Origin: Dehalococcoides mccartyi
GTDB lineage: Bacteria > Chloroflexota > Dehalococcoidia > GIF9 > DYGU01
Direction: 5' to 3'
Length of the DNA: 45,566 nucleotides
Assembly: GCA_020724525.1 (NCBI GenBank)
Contig: DYGU01000013.1
Coordinates: 1-45,566 of the forward strand
Below, one piece after another: positions 21,103 through 33,756 of this stretch. Each line of letters opens with the position of its first letter. Positions within the stretch are counted from its first letter, which is position 1. The position numbers and the translations under genes were made by a program. Under the pieces are notes generated by a model. It did not search any database and was not told the DNA's origin. It saw only the letters and a list, made by a program, of their open reading frames with translations.

Positions 21103-23097
21103 TTACCTGGGTCTAACCAGGGGTGACATAAGCTCTTCGTCTTTTCTCAATTCAATGATACGGTCACGGAGCAAAGCCGCTTTTTCAAACTCCAGATTTT
21201 TAGCCGCTTTTTTCATCTGAGACTCTAGCTCTTTAATCAGCCTGGCAACCTCTTCCTTAGAAATAGGCACTGGCATATAAGGTGCCCGAGCCTCAGCTAC
21301 TACCTTGATCCTCTCTGTAATATCCCTGATAGCCTTCTTTATCCCCTGGGGAGTGATGTCGTGTTCCTTATTGTAAGCCTCTTGAATTCGTCGCCGCCGG
21401 TAGGTCTCATCAATAGCTTCACGCATAGCTGTAGTCACACTGTCAGCATACATAATGACATGTCCATCTATGTGTCGAGCCGCTCGCCCCATGGTCTGGA
21501 TCAAGGCTTCTTTTGACCTCAGATAGCCTTCTTTATCAGCATCCAGGATAGCTACCAGGCTTACCTCAGGCAGGTCCAGTCCCTCTCGGAGCAGGTTTAT
21601 GCCCACAACAACATCGTAGACGCCTAAACGCAGGTCGCGCAAAATTTCCACCCGCTCCAGAGTCTCAATTTCAGAGTGGAGGTAATGGGTTTTTATTTCC
21701 ATTTCTCGGAGATAATCAGCAAGCTCTTCCGCCATCCGTTTAGTTAGAGTTGTTACCAGACAGCGCTCCCCCCTCTCGACACGGCTCTTTATCTGATAAA
21801 TGAGGTCATCAATCTGCCCCTTAGTCGGCTTGACTTCAATAGTCGGCTCTAAAAGTCCGGTGGGACGAATTAATTGCTCAACTATTTTCTGACTGTGTTC
21901 ATACTCATAAGCTGCCGGTGTCGCTGAAACATAAATAACCTGATTAATATGCCTCTCAAATTCCTCAAAGTTCAAAGGACGGTTGTCCAGAGCTGAAGGC
22001 AAGCGAAAACCATAATCCACCAGGGTCTGCTTGCGAGAAATATCGCCGTGGTGCATACCCCGTATCTGGGGGAGGGTCATGTGGGACTCATCGATAAAGA
22101 GCAGGAAGTCGTCAGGGAAATAGTCCAGTAGAGTCCAGGGAGGGCTTCCCGGTGCTCGTCTCTGGAGGTGCCGCGAATAGTTTTCCACACCGGTGCAATA
22201 GCCCACTTCCCGGAGCATCTCAATATCATAATTAGTCCGGGCTTCCAGCCGTGCTGCTTCAAGGAGTTTACCCTGACTTCTCAATTCCTTTAGTCTCTCG
22301 GCTAACTCAGCTTTAATATCTTCAATAGCTGCCATCAACTTATCGTAAGAAGTAACGAAATGCTTTGCCGGGTAAATATCTACTTCTTCCCGTTCGGCTA
22401 ATAATTCACCGGTAAGGGGGTCAACTTCCACAATCCGCTCCACATCATCCCCCCAGAACTCAATCCTCAAAGCTATTTCTTCGTAAGATGGCTGAATCTC
22501 TAAAGTATCACCTCGGATCCGGAACTTACCTCTGGTAAAATCAAAGTCATTTCTCTCATATTGCATATCCACCAACCGGCGCAACAGTTTATCCCGATTG
22601 CATCTCTCCCCCTTTTTCACCGTTACCACAAAACTATGGTATTCTTCTGGAGAACCTAAACTGTAAATGCAGGACACTGAAGCTACAATAATTACGCCTC
22701 GTCGCTCAAAAAGAGCCCGGGTTGCCGCATGTCTCAGCTTGTCAATCTCCTCATTTATGTCAGTCTCTTTCTCAATATAAGTGTCCGTCTGAGGGACATA
22801 AGCTTCAGGCTGATAATAATCATAATAGCTAACGAAGTATTCCACAGCGTTATCCGGGAAGAACTCTTTGAATTCAGTGCATAGCTGAGCGGCTAAAGTC
22901 TTATTATGACAAATGACCAGAGTCGGTTTCTGCACCCTTTCAATAACATTAGCCATGGTGAAAGTCTTACCGCTACCAGTTACCCCCAGCAGCGTCTGCT
23001 TTCGGTATCCCTTGTTGACACCCTCCACCAGCTTCTCCACAGCTTGGGGCTGGTCACCGGTAGGTTGAAAATCAGAGACAATCCTAAACTCAGGCAT
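21103..23097 (-). CDS. uvrB: Excinuclease ABC subunit B
   Basis: UvrB, the damage-verifying helicase-like core of nucleotide excision repair. 664 residues, full length. Walker A GVTGSGKT (38-45), the beta-hairpin that clamps DNA ([12 protein letters not shown], near residue 95), the DE-x-H box [11 protein letters not shown], the HELICc motif GRAARHIDG, and a C-terminal UVR domain (about 627-662) for UvrC binding. Its ATG is overlapped by the stop codon of a 48-residue membrane protein gene, so both are coupled. uvrA and uvrC are not in the window. Confidence 0.97.
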
Positions 23098-23236: not shown

Positions 23237-23269
23237 ATTAAACTCCTAAAAACGCACGAACGCAATTTC

Positions 23270-23333
23270 TTACTTCCTGACCCGCTGCTGCAGTGCTAAC
23301 TTAACTTATCCTCAAGGCTTAGCTTTAGACACG
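23270..23333 (-). pseudogene. Relic of the ruvA 3' end
   Basis: About 60 bases align with the end of the intact ruvA (24155-24214): both read, on the reverse strand, a LED(K)VKLALQQ-like segment ending in RK and TAA. Roughly three quarters of positions match by eye, with one missing base near GAGGATAAG. The relic and the intact end flank the protease/HicB cassette as imperfect direct repeats. Confidence 0.6.
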
Positions 23334-23373
23334 GAGACAGAACCTGTGTCAGGCAAATTCAACTTAAGAATAT

Positions 23374-23586
23374 TCACTGAATGATTATATATTCAGAAAA
23401 AGATTGCGACTCTGGAACAGGCAAGTTGTCTTCCACCAACCCTCGCAAGTGCATCTCAATTGCCTCATACATATTTTGTTCAGCTTCTTCTCGAGTATCA
23501 CCTGTGGCTACGCAACCGGGCAAGTCGGGTGAATATGCTGAATAATTCCCGTTAGCCTTTTCAATAACAACGAGAAATCGATACAT
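23374..23586 (-). CDS. HicB-like antitoxin domain protein (orphan)
   Basis: A 70-residue HicB-type protein: YRFLVVIEKANGNYSAYSPD, then LPGCVATGDTREEAEQNM and a helix EAIEMHLRGLVED. The pattern of strand, D-LPGC, GDT-EEA and amphipathic helix defines the partially degraded RNase H fold of HicB. I choose ATG 23584-23586 because AAAGGAGGAG lies just upstream; a longer frame begins at a TTG (23631) overlapping the protease gene. No HicA gene is adjacent, unlike the pair at 28165-28612, so its partner is missing or unrelated. It is downstream of and probably co-transcribed with the aspartic protease gene. Confidence 0.8.
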   Translation of the reverse strand: MYRFLVVIEKANGNYSAYSPDLPGCVATGDTREEAEQNMYEAIEMHLRGLVEDNLPVPESQSFSEYIIIQ

Positions 23587-23627
23587 GTCTACTTCTCCTC
23601 CTTTAATTTCGCCTGTTTCAAAATACT

Positions 23628-24023
23628 TCAAAGCTCTGTTAGCTCTCCTTTCCGGAGACGGTAATAATCAACCTGGGGTGGGATGGTACTTTCGTTGATA
23701 ATTGTCCCCCAGTCTTCAAGAATAACCGCTCCAAAGAGGACATCTATCCTTTTGCCATTTTCCTCTCCTAAATCCCTAACAGGGTAAAGAACTTGAGCAA
23801 ATTGATATGCTCTTCCTTCACTGTCCTTAATGATGCCGGGAACAACTCTCCCCTCCTTCACTCTAAAGGTCTTGCCTCCCAGTCCTACTTCAAACGGTTG
23901 GACCGGGAACAATGGAAGCCTCTTTGCTAATTCAGACCTGATATAAGACCTCCAAGCACCTGTATCCAGGGCGGCACACAACTTCTTGCCTTTTATTTCT
24001 ACCTCAACTAAAGGCCTCGCCAT
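23628..24023 (-). CDS. Retropepsin-like clan AA aspartic protease
   Basis: A 131-residue soluble protein. VEVEIKGKKLCAALDTGA carries the single Asp20-Thr21-Gly22-Ala23 active-site motif of retropepsin-like proteases, which work as dimers. It is followed by a VGLGGKTFRVKEG strand pair and a GKRIDVLFGAVILEDWG C-terminal part, matching the small bacterial 'clan AA' group. Substrates of this group are unknown. ATG 24021-24023 is preceded by AAGGAA. It sits with an orphan HicB in a small cassette between ruvA and uvrB. Confidence 0.8.
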   Translation of the reverse strand: MARPLVEVEIKGKKLCAALDTGAWRSYIRSELAKRLPLFPVQPFEVGLGGKTFRVKEGRVVPGIIKDSEGRAYQFAQVLYPVRDLGEENGKRIDVLFGAVILEDWGTIINESTIPPQVDYYRLRKGELTEL

Positions 24024-24154
24024 GGATATCCTTCCTTTCCCTTTTAGTTTTTAAGTTGCTAATTTAATCTCTCTTTTATACTACTACCTAAAATTATAGG
24101 AGTCAACGGAATGCTGTATTTGTGACCGTTAGTGGCATTCAGGCGCCCCGTTTT

Positions 24155-24739
24155 TTACTTCCTGCCTAGCTGCTGCAGCGCCAGCTTGACTTTGTCCTCC
24201 AGACTTAACTCTGAGGACTGGGGCAGTGCTGAGACAGCCTGGGTAGCTTCTTTGAGTGAGTAGCCGAGACTGATAAGAGCCGCTACAATATCGGCACTTT
24301 CTGCTGCCAATGGTAAAGCTGCTACCCTCTTCCACCCCTTCTCCAGCTTACCTTTTAGCTCAAGGACAAGGCGACTGGCTATCTTCTTACCAATGCCAGG
24401 CACCTGACTGAGAATGTCAACACTGCCGTTAACAATCGCCAGAGCCAGTTGCTCTGGAGTTAAAGAGGAGAGTAAGGATAAAGCTGCTTTGGGACCAACC
24501 CCCGATACAGAAATAAGGTTTTGAAACAGTCCTAACTCTTCCGCCGAGGCAAAACCATAAAGGGTGACATTGTCTTCTCTTAAATAGAGATGGGTCTGGA
24601 GATAAACTTTATCTCCCACACTACCTAACTGCTCTAAAGTAGAACCAGGAATATGAACTCGCAGACTAACCGAACCGACCTTTATCACGGCTGAGTCCAA
24701 TTCCCGCCGCTCCAGAGTTCCTTCCATAGCTACTATCAT
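24155..24739 (-). CDS. ruvA: Holliday junction branch migration protein RuvA
   Basis: A 194-residue RuvA, which binds Holliday junctions as tetramers and loads the RuvB motor. Three regions are seen: the N-terminal OB fold (MIVAMEGTLERRE onward), two helix-hairpin-helix motifs (SVSGVGPKAALSLLS and SQVPGIGKKIASRLVLELKG), and the C-terminal RuvB-binding domain (IVAALISLGYSLKEATQAV). It overlaps ruvC by 4 nt. ruvB is not found nearby. Its 3' end has a diverged copy at 23270-23333. Confidence 0.96.
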   Translation of the reverse strand: MIVAMEGTLERRELDSAVIKVGSVSLRVHIPGSTLEQLGSVGDKVYLQTHLYLREDNVTLYGFASAEELGLFQNLISVSGVGPKAALSLLSSLTPEQLALAIVNGSVDILSQVPGIGKKIASRLVLELKGKLEKGWKRVAALPLAAESADIVAALISLGYSLKEATQAVSALPQSSELSLEDKVKLALQQLGRK

Positions 24740-28164: not shown

Positions 28165-28398
28165 TCATTTCTCATAAAGCTTCAGAAACTCTTCCCTTGT
28201 TAACCCAGCCTCGCTAATTATACCGCGAAGTAGTCCTCTTCTTATTTCTCGATGAGCTGGAACGACTACACGGATATGGGGAGGCTCTCTTCTCTTTAAA
28301 ATTATGTGGCTTCCCTTCTGATGATGAACAAAGAAACCGGCTTTCTCTAAAACTTTGACGAGCTCAGCTCCCGAGAGAATGGGAAGCTTCCTAGGCAT
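28165..28398 (-). CDS. hicA: HicA-family mRNA interferase toxin
   Basis: A 77-residue HicA toxin with a double-stranded RNA-binding-like fold, which cleaves mRNA. It begins MPRKLPILSGAELVKVLEKA and contains the catalytic His31 in HQKGSHIIL, then VVVPAHREIRRGLLRGI. I use ATG 28396-28398, which overlaps the hicB stop by 8 nt; the frame extends five codons further upstream without a better start. It is the downstream member of a hicBA pair. Confidence 0.9.
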   Translation of the reverse strand: MPRKLPILSGAELVKVLEKAGFFVHHQKGSHIILKRREPPHIRVVVPAHREIRRGLLRGIISEAGLTREEFLKLYEK

Positions 28399-28612
28399 AA
28401 ACTTCCACGTCAAGGATCTCCGGTTCTATATTTAAAGGTATCGGAAGCTTGTCTTTTCTCAGACTCTCTAAGTAGGCTTCAATTGCCTCACGAATATTGG
28501 ACAGCGCTTCCTCTCTCGTGTTTCCTTGGGAATAGCAGCCAGGTAAAGCAGGACAGCGAACTACGTACCCACCATCTTCAGGGTCTGGCTCCAACACAAT
28601 TCTATATTTCAT
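28391..28612 (-). CDS. hicB: HicB-family antitoxin
   Basis: A 73-residue HicB antitoxin: YRIVLEPDPEDGGYVVRCPA, LPGCYSQGNTREEALSNIRE and a helix EAIEAYLESLRKD. It lacks a separate C-terminal DNA-binding domain, so it is the short type. The ATG has GGAGG at a proper distance. The antitoxin precedes the toxin, less usual than hicA-hicB order but seen in many genomes. AT-rich promoter-like sequence lies upstream (28630-28700). Confidence 0.9.
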   Translation of the reverse strand: MKYRIVLEPDPEDGGYVVRCPALPGCYSQGNTREEALSNIREAIEAYLESLRKDKLPIPLNIEPEILDVEVYA

Positions 28613-28933: not shown

Positions 28934-29449
28934 TTGATTGTTGCAGATGCGTCAGTGCTCATAGTTCTGTCGAAGATAGGCAGAGTTCGTCTGTTAAGAC
29001 TACTATATGAGCAGGTTGTTATTGGCCCTGTGGTTAAGGCAGAGGTGGTTGATAGAGGCAAAGCAATCAGTGCGGCTGAGGTCAGACAGGTGGAAAAGGG
29101 ATTAGAGGAAAGTTGGATACGAGAGGTTCTGACCACGAATAGGGAGAAAAGGCTTATCCAGCGAATATTAGACAGTATTCGCTTAGGCGAGGGTGAGGCT
29201 GAGTCTCTTGCGTTAGCAAGCACTCGCAAGCTCATCGTTTTGATAGATGATAAAGAAGCGAGAGCAATTGCCAAAGCCATGGAGATAGAGCATATGGGCA
29301 CAGCTGGAGTGTTATTAGAAGCTTTCATTAAGAGGCATCTGACCTATAATGAGTTGGAAGAGGCTGTGAGAGATTTGGGCGGGGTGATGTGGCTTTCCCC
29401 TGATATTGTAACTGATATAATGAGAACAGCGAGGGAGGTAAGGAAATGA
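28934..29449 (+). CDS. PIN-like DUF3368 toxin
   Basis: A 171-residue DUF3368 protein, a PIN-superfamily nuclease-type toxin. It has the N-terminal Asp motif IVADASVLIVLSKIGR, LGEGEAESLALAS with the central acidic residues, and LIVLIDDKEARAIAKAM with the second Asp pair, arranged as in PIN domains. The start is TTG 28934 with GGGAG upstream. Its stop overlaps the start of the UPF0175 gene by 4 nt (ATGA), forming a toxin-antitoxin pair in toxin-first order. Confidence 0.88.
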   Translation: MIVADASVLIVLSKIGRVRLLRLLYEQVVIGPVVKAEVVDRGKAISAAEVRQVEKGLEESWIREVLTTNREKRLIQRILDSIRLGEGEAESLALASTRKLIVLIDDKEARAIAKAMEIEHMGTAGVLLEAFIKRHLTYNELEEAVRDLGGVMWLSPDIVTDIMRTAREVRK

Positions 29450-29784
29450 AAAGGGAGCAAATGGTTGGGTCACGTCTTCCACAAGAGTTGTTGAAAGATC
29501 TGGAGATGATAGAGAGGCTGGAGCAGACTGACCGCTCTACTACTGTAAGGAAGCTTCTTTACAGAGCCGTAGGGGAATGGAAACAGGAATACTATGCAAG
29601 GCAGTATGGCGAAGGAAAGACAACCCTTGCTCGAGCTGCTCGGGAGGCTGGGGTCTCGTTGTGGGAAATGGTGGATTATGTGAGGCAGAAGAAAATAGCA
29701 GCCCAATATGATTTAGAAGAATTCAAGAAGGATGTGGAAGCTGTACTCCGCAGAACCGGTTCTACCAGAGCGGTAGTACAGTAG
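29446..29784 (+). CDS. UPF0175-family antitoxin
   Basis: A 112-residue protein. The N-terminus looks like a ribbon-helix-helix segment (MVGSRLPQELLKDLEMIERL), followed by the UPF0175 domain AREAGVSLWEMVDYVRQKKI and an acidic C-terminal helix. UPF0175 proteins are the usual partners of DUF3368 PIN toxins and are thought to bind both toxin and operator DNA. It overlaps the toxin gene and is intact. Confidence 0.85.
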   Translation: MKREQMVGSRLPQELLKDLEMIERLEQTDRSTTVRKLLYRAVGEWKQEYYARQYGEGKTTLARAAREAGVSLWEMVDYVRQKKIAAQYDLEEFKKDVEAVLRRTGSTRAVVQ

Positions 29785-29834
29785 AGTTAGAGTTTAAGGA
29801 ATAAGGGGCAAAACCAGCAGCGAGTCTACTTTAG

Positions 29835-29866
29835 AAAAAACGGGCTCCAGTCAAAACCAGAGCCCG
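29835..29866 (-). terminator. Intrinsic terminator of ssrA
   Basis: On the reverse strand CGGGCTC, a 12-nt loop, GAGCCCG (29841-29866) followed by TTTTTT (29835-29840). It lies 10 nt beyond the tmRNA 3' end: a textbook Rho-independent terminator. Confidence 0.9.
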
Positions 29867-29876
29867 AATCCTATTC

Positions 29877-30224
29877 TGGTGGAGACGGGGGAGAGTTGAA
29901 CTCCCCGTCCAGAAGAGAACCTCCAGAATCTGCTACAGGCTTAGTCAGCTCTTTTGTCTTATCCAACCGTCCTCTGCTGACTGAGTACAGTTAGACCAGT
30001 CGATAATCTCTTGTCCAGTCTCTATCGACTTCAGGACTGGGGCACCCTGACTTTTCGTCGCCCAATCCCAACCCGCCAGGGCAGGGTCGGGTTGGGCGTG
30101 CAACTTTAATTAAGCTGCGATAGGAACTGCTTCGGCAGTTGTCTTGTGCCCTTTGTTTTATGAGGTAAAGGGCACCTCAGCCTGCTATTCTGTACGCTCT
30201 TCCCTGTCGAACCCACGCGCCCCC
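29877..30224 (-). ncRNA. ssrA: tmRNA
   Basis: Transfer-messenger RNA, 348 nt. The 5' GGGGGCG pairs with CGTCTCC just before the 3' ACCA. The T-arm is GGGAG-TTCAACT-CTCCC. The conserved GGGTTCGAC lies near the 5' end. A first pseudoknot is clear (GAGG...CCTC with TGCCCTTT...AAAGGGCA). The tag frame ends GCA GCT TAA (30110-30118); reading from the GCC at 30134-30136 gives the short tag AEAVPIAA. The resume codon is inferred from its distance to the pseudoknot. It starts 14 nt after smpB and is probably processed from a shared transcript. Confidence 0.93.
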
Positions 30225-30742: not shown

Positions 30743-30789
30743 AAGATTACCAAACAGTCCCAATGAATATCAGGACAACGGAGGATAAA

Positions 30790-31299
30790 ATGGGAAAGTT
30801 ACTGGACAAATTATGGCTGATTCTCATTCTTTTCTTAGTGGTTACTGTTATTTCAGGTGGTATTGTCCTAGCAATAAAGCAGGTACAAAGCCAGCCGGTA
30901 GAAATTGTTATTACCCCGCCAAAAATTCCCCAATACCACGGGCAAGTTCACATTGGCGGAGCCGTAACCAATCCCGGATACTATCCGTGGAAAGATGGGG
31001 ATACCCTTCAAGCTGTTCTCCAAGGTGCTGGACTTAAAGTAGAAGCCGACCTGAGTCGGCTAAAAATCTATGTGCCGCAGGTCGGTGAAACCTACCCACC
31101 CCAGAAAATCAATATTAACCGAGCCGAGACCTGGCTACTTCAAGCCCTACCTGAAATTGGTCTGGTGAGGGCTCAGGCTATTGTAAATTACCGCATTCAA
31201 AAGGGACTTTTCCTTCGCCCGGAAGACCTGCTCAAAGTAGAAGGCATTGGTCGCCTGACTTATAACCGTATAAAAGACTTGATTACTGTGGATGACTGA
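30790..31299 (+). CDS. comEA: ComEA-type DNA-binding competence protein
   Basis: A 169-residue ComEA: an N-terminal membrane anchor (LWLILILFLVVTVISGGIVL), an SLBB domain (VHIGGAVTNPGYYPWKDGDT) and a C-terminal helix-hairpin-helix pair (INRAETWLLQALPEIGLVRA, then LLKVEGIGRLTYNRIKDL). ComEA binds incoming DNA outside the membrane and hands it to ComEC. I choose ATG 30790, with GGAGG 5 nt upstream; the frame is open from ATG 30763. It is followed by comEC after 15 nt. comEC is interrupted, so transformation is doubtful. Confidence 0.9.
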   Translation: MGKLLDKLWLILILFLVVTVISGGIVLAIKQVQSQPVEIVITPPKIPQYHGQVHIGGAVTNPGYYPWKDGDTLQAVLQGAGLKVEADLSRLKIYVPQVGETYPPQKININRAETWLLQALPEIGLVRAQAIVNYRIQKGLFLRPEDLLKVEGIGRLTYNRIKDLITVDD

Positions 31300-31314
31300 A
31301 AAGGAAATTTAGTT

Positions 31315-33756
31315 ATGCCCCTCCTTCATGTTAGCTGTGCCTGGCTTTTAGGCATCTATTTAGGAGCCAAAATCTCTTTTCCTCTAAGTAGCCTTCTTTT
31401 CAGTTTAGCTCCCGTTTGCCTGCTGCCTTTCTTATTCCAATACAGAAGCAAGTTGCTTCTCCTCACTTTCTGTCTTTTAGCTTTCTTCGGTGCTACTTTT
31501 CGGTTTCAAACAGCTCAACCGGTGGTTAATGAGCAACATTTGGCTTTTTACAATAACCGGGGAGTAGTGGAAATTACAGGTCTGGTCTCCAACGACCCCG
31601 AAAGCCGGAATACTACGCAGTCTATCCACCTTTCCGCCTCGGAGATAAGAATAGACAATCAAGTAAAGAAAATTTCAGGAACAGCTCTATTACGGACCGC
31701 AATATACCCGGAATACTATTACGGAGACATCCTGAAAGTAACCGGTAAATTGGAAATAGCACCGACCTTTGCTGATTTCGATTACAAGGGATATCTGGAA
31801 CGGCAAGGGATTTACTCGATAATCAATTACCCGAAAATAGAAATTTTAGATAAGAGAAAAGGCAGCAAACTCCTGCAATGGCTTTATTCCTTTAGGAACC
31901 ATCTGTCTCAAGTCCTGAAGGCGACTCTACCTGAACCCCAAGGGGCTTTAGCCCGAGGTATTACTCTTGGTATGAGAAGTGACATACCCTCTTCACTGAG
32001 CTAAGCTTTCTCTCGAACTGGTACAGCTCATCTTCTGGCTATTTCCGGTCTCCACCTCAGCATTATTATCGGGATGTTTGTCAGCCTGGGTCTGAGGTTA
32101 TTCGGGAAAAGATACTATTTGTATATTTGGCTTGCCTTGTTAGTTACCTGGCTATATGCCCTATTCACCGGCATGCGTCCCCCGATAGTCCGGGGAGCAA
32201 TTATGGGAAGCCTGTTCTTATTAGCCGAATATGTAGGAAGACAGCGAAGTGCTATCATTGCTCTGGTGTTTGCCGCGGCAATAATGGTTGGAGTTAAGCC
32301 TCAAGTCTTATGGGATGCTGCCTTCCAACTCAGTTTCCTGGCTATGGCAGGACTTGTTTTCCTATCTCCACCTCTGCAAAACTGGGGGAGAAGATGGGTC
32401 ACGAGCATTTTCAATAACAAGGCTATAGTCGCATCTATAGTTAATGTAGTTACTGATGGCTTTGCCGTAACTCTGAGTGCCATCATTGCTACTTTCCCTG
32501 TCATAGCCTACTATTTCGGTATCGCCTCTTTGGTCGGTCTTCCAGCCACCTTTTTAGCCTTACTCGCCTTGCCGGCTATTATTGCCATCACCATACTGGC
32601 TGGTTCCTCAGGACTCGTGTTTTTTCCCTTAGCCCAGGTCTTTGCCTGGGTAGATTGGCTTTTTCTCAGCTATCTAATTCTGGTAATTAAAATCTATGAC
32701 TCCTTACCCCTGTCTTCCTTTGAAATAAACAATCCCCAACTCTGGCAAGTGTGGGGTTACTATGCTTTCCTTACCATCACTATCGGCATTGTCAGCTCCA
32801 GAAGACAAGTTGTTGGACTCCTATCTAAAGCATTTTCCAAAGTCCAGCAGTTAGCCCAGAATTCGGCTAACTGTCTTTCTCGCCTGCCCAGGAAATGGCT
32901 TATTCCCGGCTTGTTACTAATAGCTATCCTGGTCTGGACAACCATCCTGACCCTGCCTGATAACCGGCTTCGGGTGAGCTTTCTCAATGTTGGTCAAGGT
33001 GACGCTATTTTGATTCAGACACCAAACCGTCAGAATGTCCTTATTGATGGTGGACCCAGTCCTCAAGCCATAAATCTGGAATTAAGTAAAAAACTCCCTT
33101 TCTGGGACAGGACTATTGACCTGATAGTACTAACCCAACCTCAGGCTGACCATGTCACCGGTCTGGTGGAAGTGCTCCACCGCTACCGAGTAAGGCAAGC
33201 AATGGAACCAGGATTAACTTCTAACTTGCCAGCTTATCAGGAATGGCTAAAACTCGTCTCCCAAAAACAAATTAACCCTACATTAGCTCAAGCCGGGCAA
33301 ACTATTGACTTAGGGAAAGGAGTAATTATGGAAGTGCTCAATCCCCCGTCACCCCTTCTCAAAGGTAGTGCTGATGATATAGACAATAATGGAATAGTTT
33401 TACGTTTGAACTGGGGCAAAGTCAGCTTTCTCTTTACCGCTGATATCGAAGAGGAAGCTGAGTTAAATCTCATCGCCCGGCGAGCCAATTTGACAAGCAC
33501 AGTATTAAAGGTAGCTCATCATGGCAGCCGGACCTCTACCTCGCCAGAATTTTTAGCCATGGTCAATCCACAAGTAGCTGTCATCTGTGTCGGTAAAGAC
33601 AACAAATTCGGTCACCCCCACTCTCAAGTTATGGAAAGATTAACCAATCATTTAGGTAAAAACAGAATCTATACTACCGCCGAAAATGGTGCCATAGAAT
33701 TTGTCACTGATGGCGAAAGATTATGGTTAAAGAGAGAAAACCGGGGCTCCCGTTAA
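31315..33756 (+). pseudogene. comEC: ComEC DNA channel, interrupted by in-frame stop
   Basis: ComEC/Rec2, the inner-membrane channel for single-stranded DNA uptake. The first part (31315-32004) has the N-terminal helices and OB-like domain and ends IPSSLS, then TAA (32002-32004). The same frame continues AFSRTGTAHLLAISGLHLS, the strongly conserved competence motif, through the helix bundle and the C-terminal MBL-like domain (FLNVGQGDAILIQTP, QADHVTGL, KVAHHGSRTST) to 33756. The stop stands where Glu is usual, so one G-to-T change suffices. All else is full length (813 codons). Confidence 0.88.

Follow-up and report, generated by a model that had tools for sequence, protein, structure and literature searches.

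A second ruvA 3' end beside a hicB-bearing segment, and similar repeat-bounded segments at other gene ends, in a Dehalococcoides mccartyi genome

Background

The route by which toxin-antitoxin modules reach chromosomes in the absence of any visible mobile element is a standing question. It is raised here by the interval between ruvA and uvrB in a stretch of 45,566 nucleotides (contig DYGU01000013.1; hereafter, the window), one of the contigs of a 1.34 Mb genome assigned to Dehalococcoides mccartyi. On the minus strand the features run yebC, ruvC, ruvA, a protease gene, hicB, a relic ruvA end, a truncated gene, and uvrB (Table 1). The order yebC-ruvC-ruvA-uvrB is kept in relatives; the closest of those compared belong to the same order as the source genome and to different families, and the named ones are Dehalococcoidia/Chloroflexi. 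A preliminary description of the window proposed that an element had inserted into the end of ruvA while restoring its coding end, as integrative elements do at the 3' ends of other genes.

Table 1. Features of the ruvA-uvrB interval and repeat-bounded segments elsewhere in the genome
Feature	Position in window	Strand	Evidence or repeat identity
ruvA, intact, 194 aa	24155..24739	-	Pfam RuvA_N, HHH_5, RuvA_C; conserved gene order
Live ruvA 3' end: coding end plus 4 bases beyond stop	24151..24214	-	Direct repeat, local alignment
Spacer 3' of ruvA, before protease gene	24024..24154	-	Holds sigma-70-like promoter match
Retropepsin-like aspartyl protease gene, full length	23628..24023	-	Pfam below cut-off; homologue alignment
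hicA remnant, 12 codons plus stop	23589..23627	-	Alignment to hicA-hicB junctions of L035, L037, L038
hicB antitoxin-like gene, 70 aa from ATG	23374..23586	-	HicB_lk_antitox, E=2e-12
Relic second ruvA 3' end, frameshifted	23266..23349	-	nhmmer, E=1.8e-7
Truncated Holliday-resolvase-related endonuclease gene, 48 of ~161 codons	23090..23236	-	Identity to L003 gene
uvrB	21103..23097	-	Mostly 82-89% identity in relatives sharing gene order
purQ segment			98% (50/51)
yifB segment			94%
dnaN segment			83%
secA segments, two in tandem			100%, 81%
pth segment			91%
tRNA-Thr 3' half segment			49/49, begins at anticodon
Segment at another gene end			93%
Segment at a further site without gene assignment			95%
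Gene-start segment			81%

The ruvA-uvrB interval

The window contains a second, diverged ruvA end in the same orientation as the live one. An ungapped direct repeat (24151-24192 and 23266-23307) is 81% identical over 42 bases, the relic and the live end are ~80% identical, and their gapped local score is 65, whereas 100 shuffled versions of the interval gave no score above 35. The resemblance noted in the preliminary description exceeds chance. A model (nhmmer) of ruvA ends, built from 59 relatives with the window left out and spanning 201 positions, matches the live end at 24355-24155 (E=1.4e-47) and the relic at 23340-23271 (envelope 23349-23270, model positions 130-200), with nothing else above threshold within the window. 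The second end proposed earlier is therefore real, but the limit of 23333 given for it is too short, since the copy reaches ~23349. In the final 55 aligned bases, 11 positions separate the relic from the live end; compared over 55 bases with the ruvA ends of the 59 relatives, the relic differs from the nearest at 14, with a median of 21. The relic is out of frame owing to indels. A convincing second ruvA end is absent from all other of the ~100 ruvA loci examined.

Empty sites are present in two close relatives. At loci L003 and L005, ruvA is followed by a spacer (98 and ~54 bases, respectively), a gene of 161 codons that matches Endonuc_Holl (archaeal Holliday junction resolvase-related), and uvrB. 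The window has 33 bases between the relic and the first ~45 codons of this gene; the remnant is 89% identical to codons 1-45 of the L003 gene and ends at the uvrB start. Because the relic and the truncated downstream gene adjoin, the relic side represents the original arrangement, to which the ~0.8 kb separating the two copies has been added. Relative to these relatives, then, the window carries an insertion with duplication of the ruvA end, and the earlier proposal that the insertion kept the coding end of ruvA is borne out. The accompanying check for other cargo between two ruvA ends gave no example among the ~100 loci: in other relatives, the ruvA-uvrB interval contains an RmuC-family gene, a degV-like gene (so named from its sequence), or almost nothing.

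Genes between the two ruvA ends

The preliminary description placed a protease gene and an orphan hicB between the copies. Both genes are there, but "orphan" is an incomplete account of hicB. The protease ORF matches gag-asp_proteas at E=1.1e-4, which is below the Pfam cut-off: its scores with PF13975 and PF13650 are 23.1 and 22.1, against cut-offs of 28.2 and 24.3. The DTG motif is intact. In an alignment with six homologues D20 and G22 are invariant and the C-terminal end is the same, so the gene is complete. Of 393 genomes in the class, seven others have homologues, at ~23-37% identity, and no relatives of the protease were found in viral contigs or in phage or plasmid records. Searches with PADLOC and NCBIfam gave no match for either the protease or HicB. 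Upstream of the protease gene, a consensus scan gives a weak sigma-70-like match at 24106-24078 (TTGACT, 17 nt, TAGTAT), a candidate promoter.

The HicB protein is 66-73% identical to the HicB of relatives, in three of which it is preceded by a complete hicA. At the junctions of these three (L035, L037 and L038), hicA ends with ...SILKQAGLKEEQ* or similar and HicB begins one or two bases on. In the window, 12 codons (SILKQAKLKEEK) and a stop follow in frame straight after the protease stop, and after two further bases comes the HicB ATG. Since SILKQAKLKEEK corresponds to the last codons of hicA, the protease gene has replaced the first part of hicA. Judged from this junction, HicB is not a primary orphan; hicA was once present and was supplanted by the retropepsin-like gene. 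The most likely start of HicB is the ATG at 23586, rather than the TTG at 23631. Thus, of the two components of a HicAB module, HicB is encoded and HicA is reduced to a 12-codon remnant.

Repeat-bounded segments elsewhere in the genome

The layout seen at ruvA recurs at other gene ends in the same genome. An unbiased scan for low-copy, same-strand repeats 250-4000 bases apart, covering ~0.79 Mb (~59% of the genome), yielded eleven repeat-bounded segments, including that at ruvA, of 295-1378 bases (Table 1). The repeats that bound them are 38-77 bases long, 78-100% identical and otherwise unique in sequence. In eight of the eleven the repeat is the end of a protein gene; the remaining three repeats are the 3' half of a tRNA-Thr gene, a gene start, and another site. 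Genes were named from Pfam where tested and otherwise from the translated sequence. Most of the segments carry toxin-antitoxin genes. The cargo includes hicBA, a HEPN protein, vapBC together with a ParE-type toxin pair, and a HepT-like/nucleotidyltransferase pair; the ruvA and dnaN segments hold retropepsin-like genes, and small ORFs are present as well. The purQ, yifB and dnaN cases were first found by testing HicB loci; the scan that gives the count is not based on HicB. Of the 11 HicB genes in the scanned sequence, five lie inside these segments, although the segments make up 1.1% of that sequence (p=7e-8). The same scan of 200 kb of E. coli returned a single match, formed by two tRNA genes. 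Among the repeats listed for the ~0.79 Mb, no large element bounded by copies of a gene end stood out. Since the layout recurs elsewhere, ruvA is no special target; it is one old member of a general pattern.

Several of these loci have features of their own. At L154 (1805-2558), two retropepsin-like genes lie downstream of dnaN, the first of which reads in frame into the dnaN end copy, so that its protein ends in sliding-clamp residues (GVDNHVVMPMFVQW); these genes adjoin a gene that, by eye, resembles Cas10. At L164 (18593-19171), a repeat-bounded insert lies at the start of an electron-transfer-subunit-like gene, the start codon region of which is duplicated.

Other HicB loci have repeats of a different kind. 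The hicBA at L153 (1-4200), present with a ParE-like pair inside or beside a CRISPR-like array with the repeat CGGAAACAACCTAATCCTCGCCAGGGGACTCCTAC, was set aside as a gene-end case because its flanking repeats are those of the array. The HicB locus at L158 was set aside because of REP-like repeats; L171 nevertheless shows a gene-end duplication just upstream of the L158 hicB. The hicAB of L037 is flanked by REP-like repeats and no gene end.

secA, pth and dnaN in related genomes

Among loci with at least 0.6 kb of sequence downstream, the secA end is duplicated in 6-7 of 25 members of the order. Copies of the end follow cassettes in G000, G038, G008, G057 (58/58 bases identical), G071 and G063; G033 has a weak copy. 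The start of the copy is at TGCCCCTGCGG or no more than ~10 bases from it, and the cargo varies (vapBC, MerR-like plus PIN, others). Tandem secA-end cassettes are present at L189 (16163-18160) and L236 (882-3317), in two families, with a copy of the secA end after each cassette and no integrase. The toxin-antitoxin-rich genome G038 shows the signature at secA (three ends), at pth and elsewhere, while its genus-mate G049 shows little.

The pth end is clearly copied at 5 of 28 loci, with toxin-antitoxin or lipoprotein-like cargo and with boundaries that vary. At L369 (1525-6460, in G032), ~87 codons forming the 3' half of pth occur a second time 4 kb downstream, fused there to another ORF. For dnaN, 27 loci gave a clear close-range case in the source genome only. 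In G001 (L368, 1070-19252), dnaN and a copy of its end are 18 kb apart; the stretch separating them includes restriction-modification-like genes and, on reading, showed no integrase. This case was left out of the evidence.

Recombinases and end signals

The segment between the ruvA copies contains a protease gene, the hicA remnant and hicB, and no integrase. Four tyrosine-recombinase matches were found in the genome, none of them on the window's contig. There is no integrase in the eleven segments or at the secA and pth loci, no target-gene end near any of 34 integrase loci, and no integrase-bearing element at any of the target genes. An integrase-type element as the agent of insertion, which the comparison in the preliminary description implied, is thus not upheld by these searches. 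Likewise, neither a common motif or fold among the target ends nor conserved cassette ends were evident by eye or in a hairpin search, and the gene-end repeats in most cases fold no better than shuffles. Nor is the ruvA segment an insertion sequence: it contains no transposase ORF and no inverted-repeat pair at its ends, and its ruvA-end duplication is at least 60 bases.

Relation to known systems

In several respects the segments resemble tyrosine-recombinase islands and prophages at the 3' ends of tRNA or protein genes, which leave the same direct repeats of a gene end on both sides and a functional gene. Other points in common with such elements are cassette-free sites in relatives, tandem accretion at a single site and the tRNA-Thr 3' half case. 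Unlike them, the inserts described here are 0.3-1.4 kb, carry no integrase, occupy ~nine different targets in one genome and have no evident conserved ends. Since no integrase was found, the ruvA segment is not classed as a site-specific integrative element.

Integrons and integrase-less cassette clusters offer another comparison, as they too consist of small, often toxin-antitoxin-bearing cassettes in repeat-separated arrays with the recombinase encoded outside the cassette. However, the repeat here is a host gene end and probably not an attC, the repeats tested mostly have no significant fold, and there is no array platform. Grounded (decayed) E. coli prophages [PMC6379469] are likewise remnants at gene ends that contain toxin-antitoxin genes and have lost excision, as the ruvA segment may have, but they are far larger than the ruvA segment, and their eutA case has an 8-base duplication only. 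Finally, the HicB of the window and its hicA-hicB junction clearly derive from a HicAB module, from which the segment differs in that hicA is down to 12 codons and a retropepsin-like gene stands in its place.

The openly accessible literature contains no report linking ruvA to an integration site, in agreement with the preliminary description, and no account of toxin-antitoxin cassettes with duplicated core-gene ends, secA included.

Origin of the segments

On balance, the interval 23350-24150 is probably one old and decayed example of a type of small integrative cassette without an integrase that recurs in this order, a reading that takes in the end duplication, the hicA remnant, the recurrence of the layout at other gene ends and the absence of an integrase. 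A hicA-hicB cassette would have joined the chromosome within the last ~60-85 bases of ruvA, such that on the upstream side the live gene kept a complete 3' end and on the far side a second end came to lie before the original downstream gene. Later, in the probable order of events, the protease gene would have replaced hicA except for its last 12 codons, the far ruvA end would have lost its frame, and the downstream nuclease gene would have been truncated. The decay of the relic indicates that the insertion is old. Toxin-antitoxin cargo may keep such remnants from deletion; this addiction argument is not universal, since some pth inserts carry lipoprotein-like rather than toxin-antitoxin genes.

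Reuse of the same gene ends, together with the near-constant boundary at secA, favors joining by recombination at an attachment-like site, for which a tRNA gene is the classical target. Because the ruvA case is present in one genome only, it is secA and pth that carry the argument for site specificity. Recombination at the gene end would presumably have been att-like, and since no integrase is found in the eleven segments or at the secA and pth loci, the enzyme may have acted in trans, may have been lost from larger elements, or may be unneeded if circles recombine homologously. The length of the copies (38 to ~85 bases, and ~260 in one relative) and the varying pth boundaries argue against a single integrase.

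The last of these options, in which circles of a cassette plus one gene end enter the resident end by a RecA-type single crossover, seems unlikely. Each round would regenerate the end on both sides, and repeated rounds would build arrays with no special enzyme after the founding event. This would account for the reuse of the same gene ends without integrases and for the tandem secA cassettes with an end after each; the repeats match the local gene (58/58 at L253, 49/49 at the tRNA gene, 50/51 at purQ), and uptake proteins resembling ComEA and ComEC are encoded in the window. However, at 40-60 bases the copies offer little length for RecA-dependent exchange, the founding event is left unexplained, and this route gives no reason why differing secA cargo should start at nearly the same base.

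Less probable again is a long target-site duplication, in which a staggered break or copying would duplicate 40-100 bases and only insertions near gene ends would survive. Consistent with this, the repeats are unique host sequence whose position relative to the stop varies (about -17 to +21), and one covers a gene start. Repeated use of the same targets and the near-constant secA boundary in different families speak against it; moreover, the duplications made by known bacterial transposases are far shorter than these. For targets hit once, long target duplication is possible.

The divergence of the two ruvA ends had been attributed either to an old event, as the decay of the relic bears out, or to an imported ruvA end. 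The latter would mean that a relative's ruvA-protease-hicB fragment entered by homologous recombination inside ruvA at one end and by illegitimate joining at the other, so that the native end came to lie downstream. It would fit the difference at 20% of positions, as well as the finding that G003 is the nearest genome for the window's ruvA but G008 for yebC and ruvC. It is improbable, given that the relic is nearer to the live end (11/55) than to any of 59 relatives (at least 14), that roughly half of the differing positions hold bases which few relatives have and which look like relic decay, and that no donor with the order ruvA-protease-hicB was found.

We tentatively suggest a wider reading: minimal mobile cassettes of a kind not yet described, most of them toxin-antitoxin pairs, may have as their attachment sites the 3' ends of core genes (secA, pth, ruvA, purQ, yifB, dnaN, tRNA-Thr). 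Such cassettes would carry the gene end as their recombination site and build arrays, with the recombinase or homologous exchange supplied by the cell.

For the entry of toxin-antitoxin modules, these loci matter because the insertion scars are still readable: every cassette has a gene-end duplicate next to it, and a single genome holds many such sites, of several ages. Together with cassette-free sites in relatives, the scars make the route of entry testable and provide a simple search signature for other genomes.

Other features of the window

Three further regions of the window touch on these subjects. The ComEA-like and ComEC-like competence genes (30763-33756) bear on DNA uptake as a route for cassettes. 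A complete hicB-hicA pair (28165-28612, minus strand), without flanking gene-end repeats, lies 5 kb from the ruvA cassette. Lastly, at 28934-30224 a UPF0175 gene and another ORF adjoin the tmRNA gene, and this spot, beside a classical integration target, looks toxin-antitoxin-rich as well.
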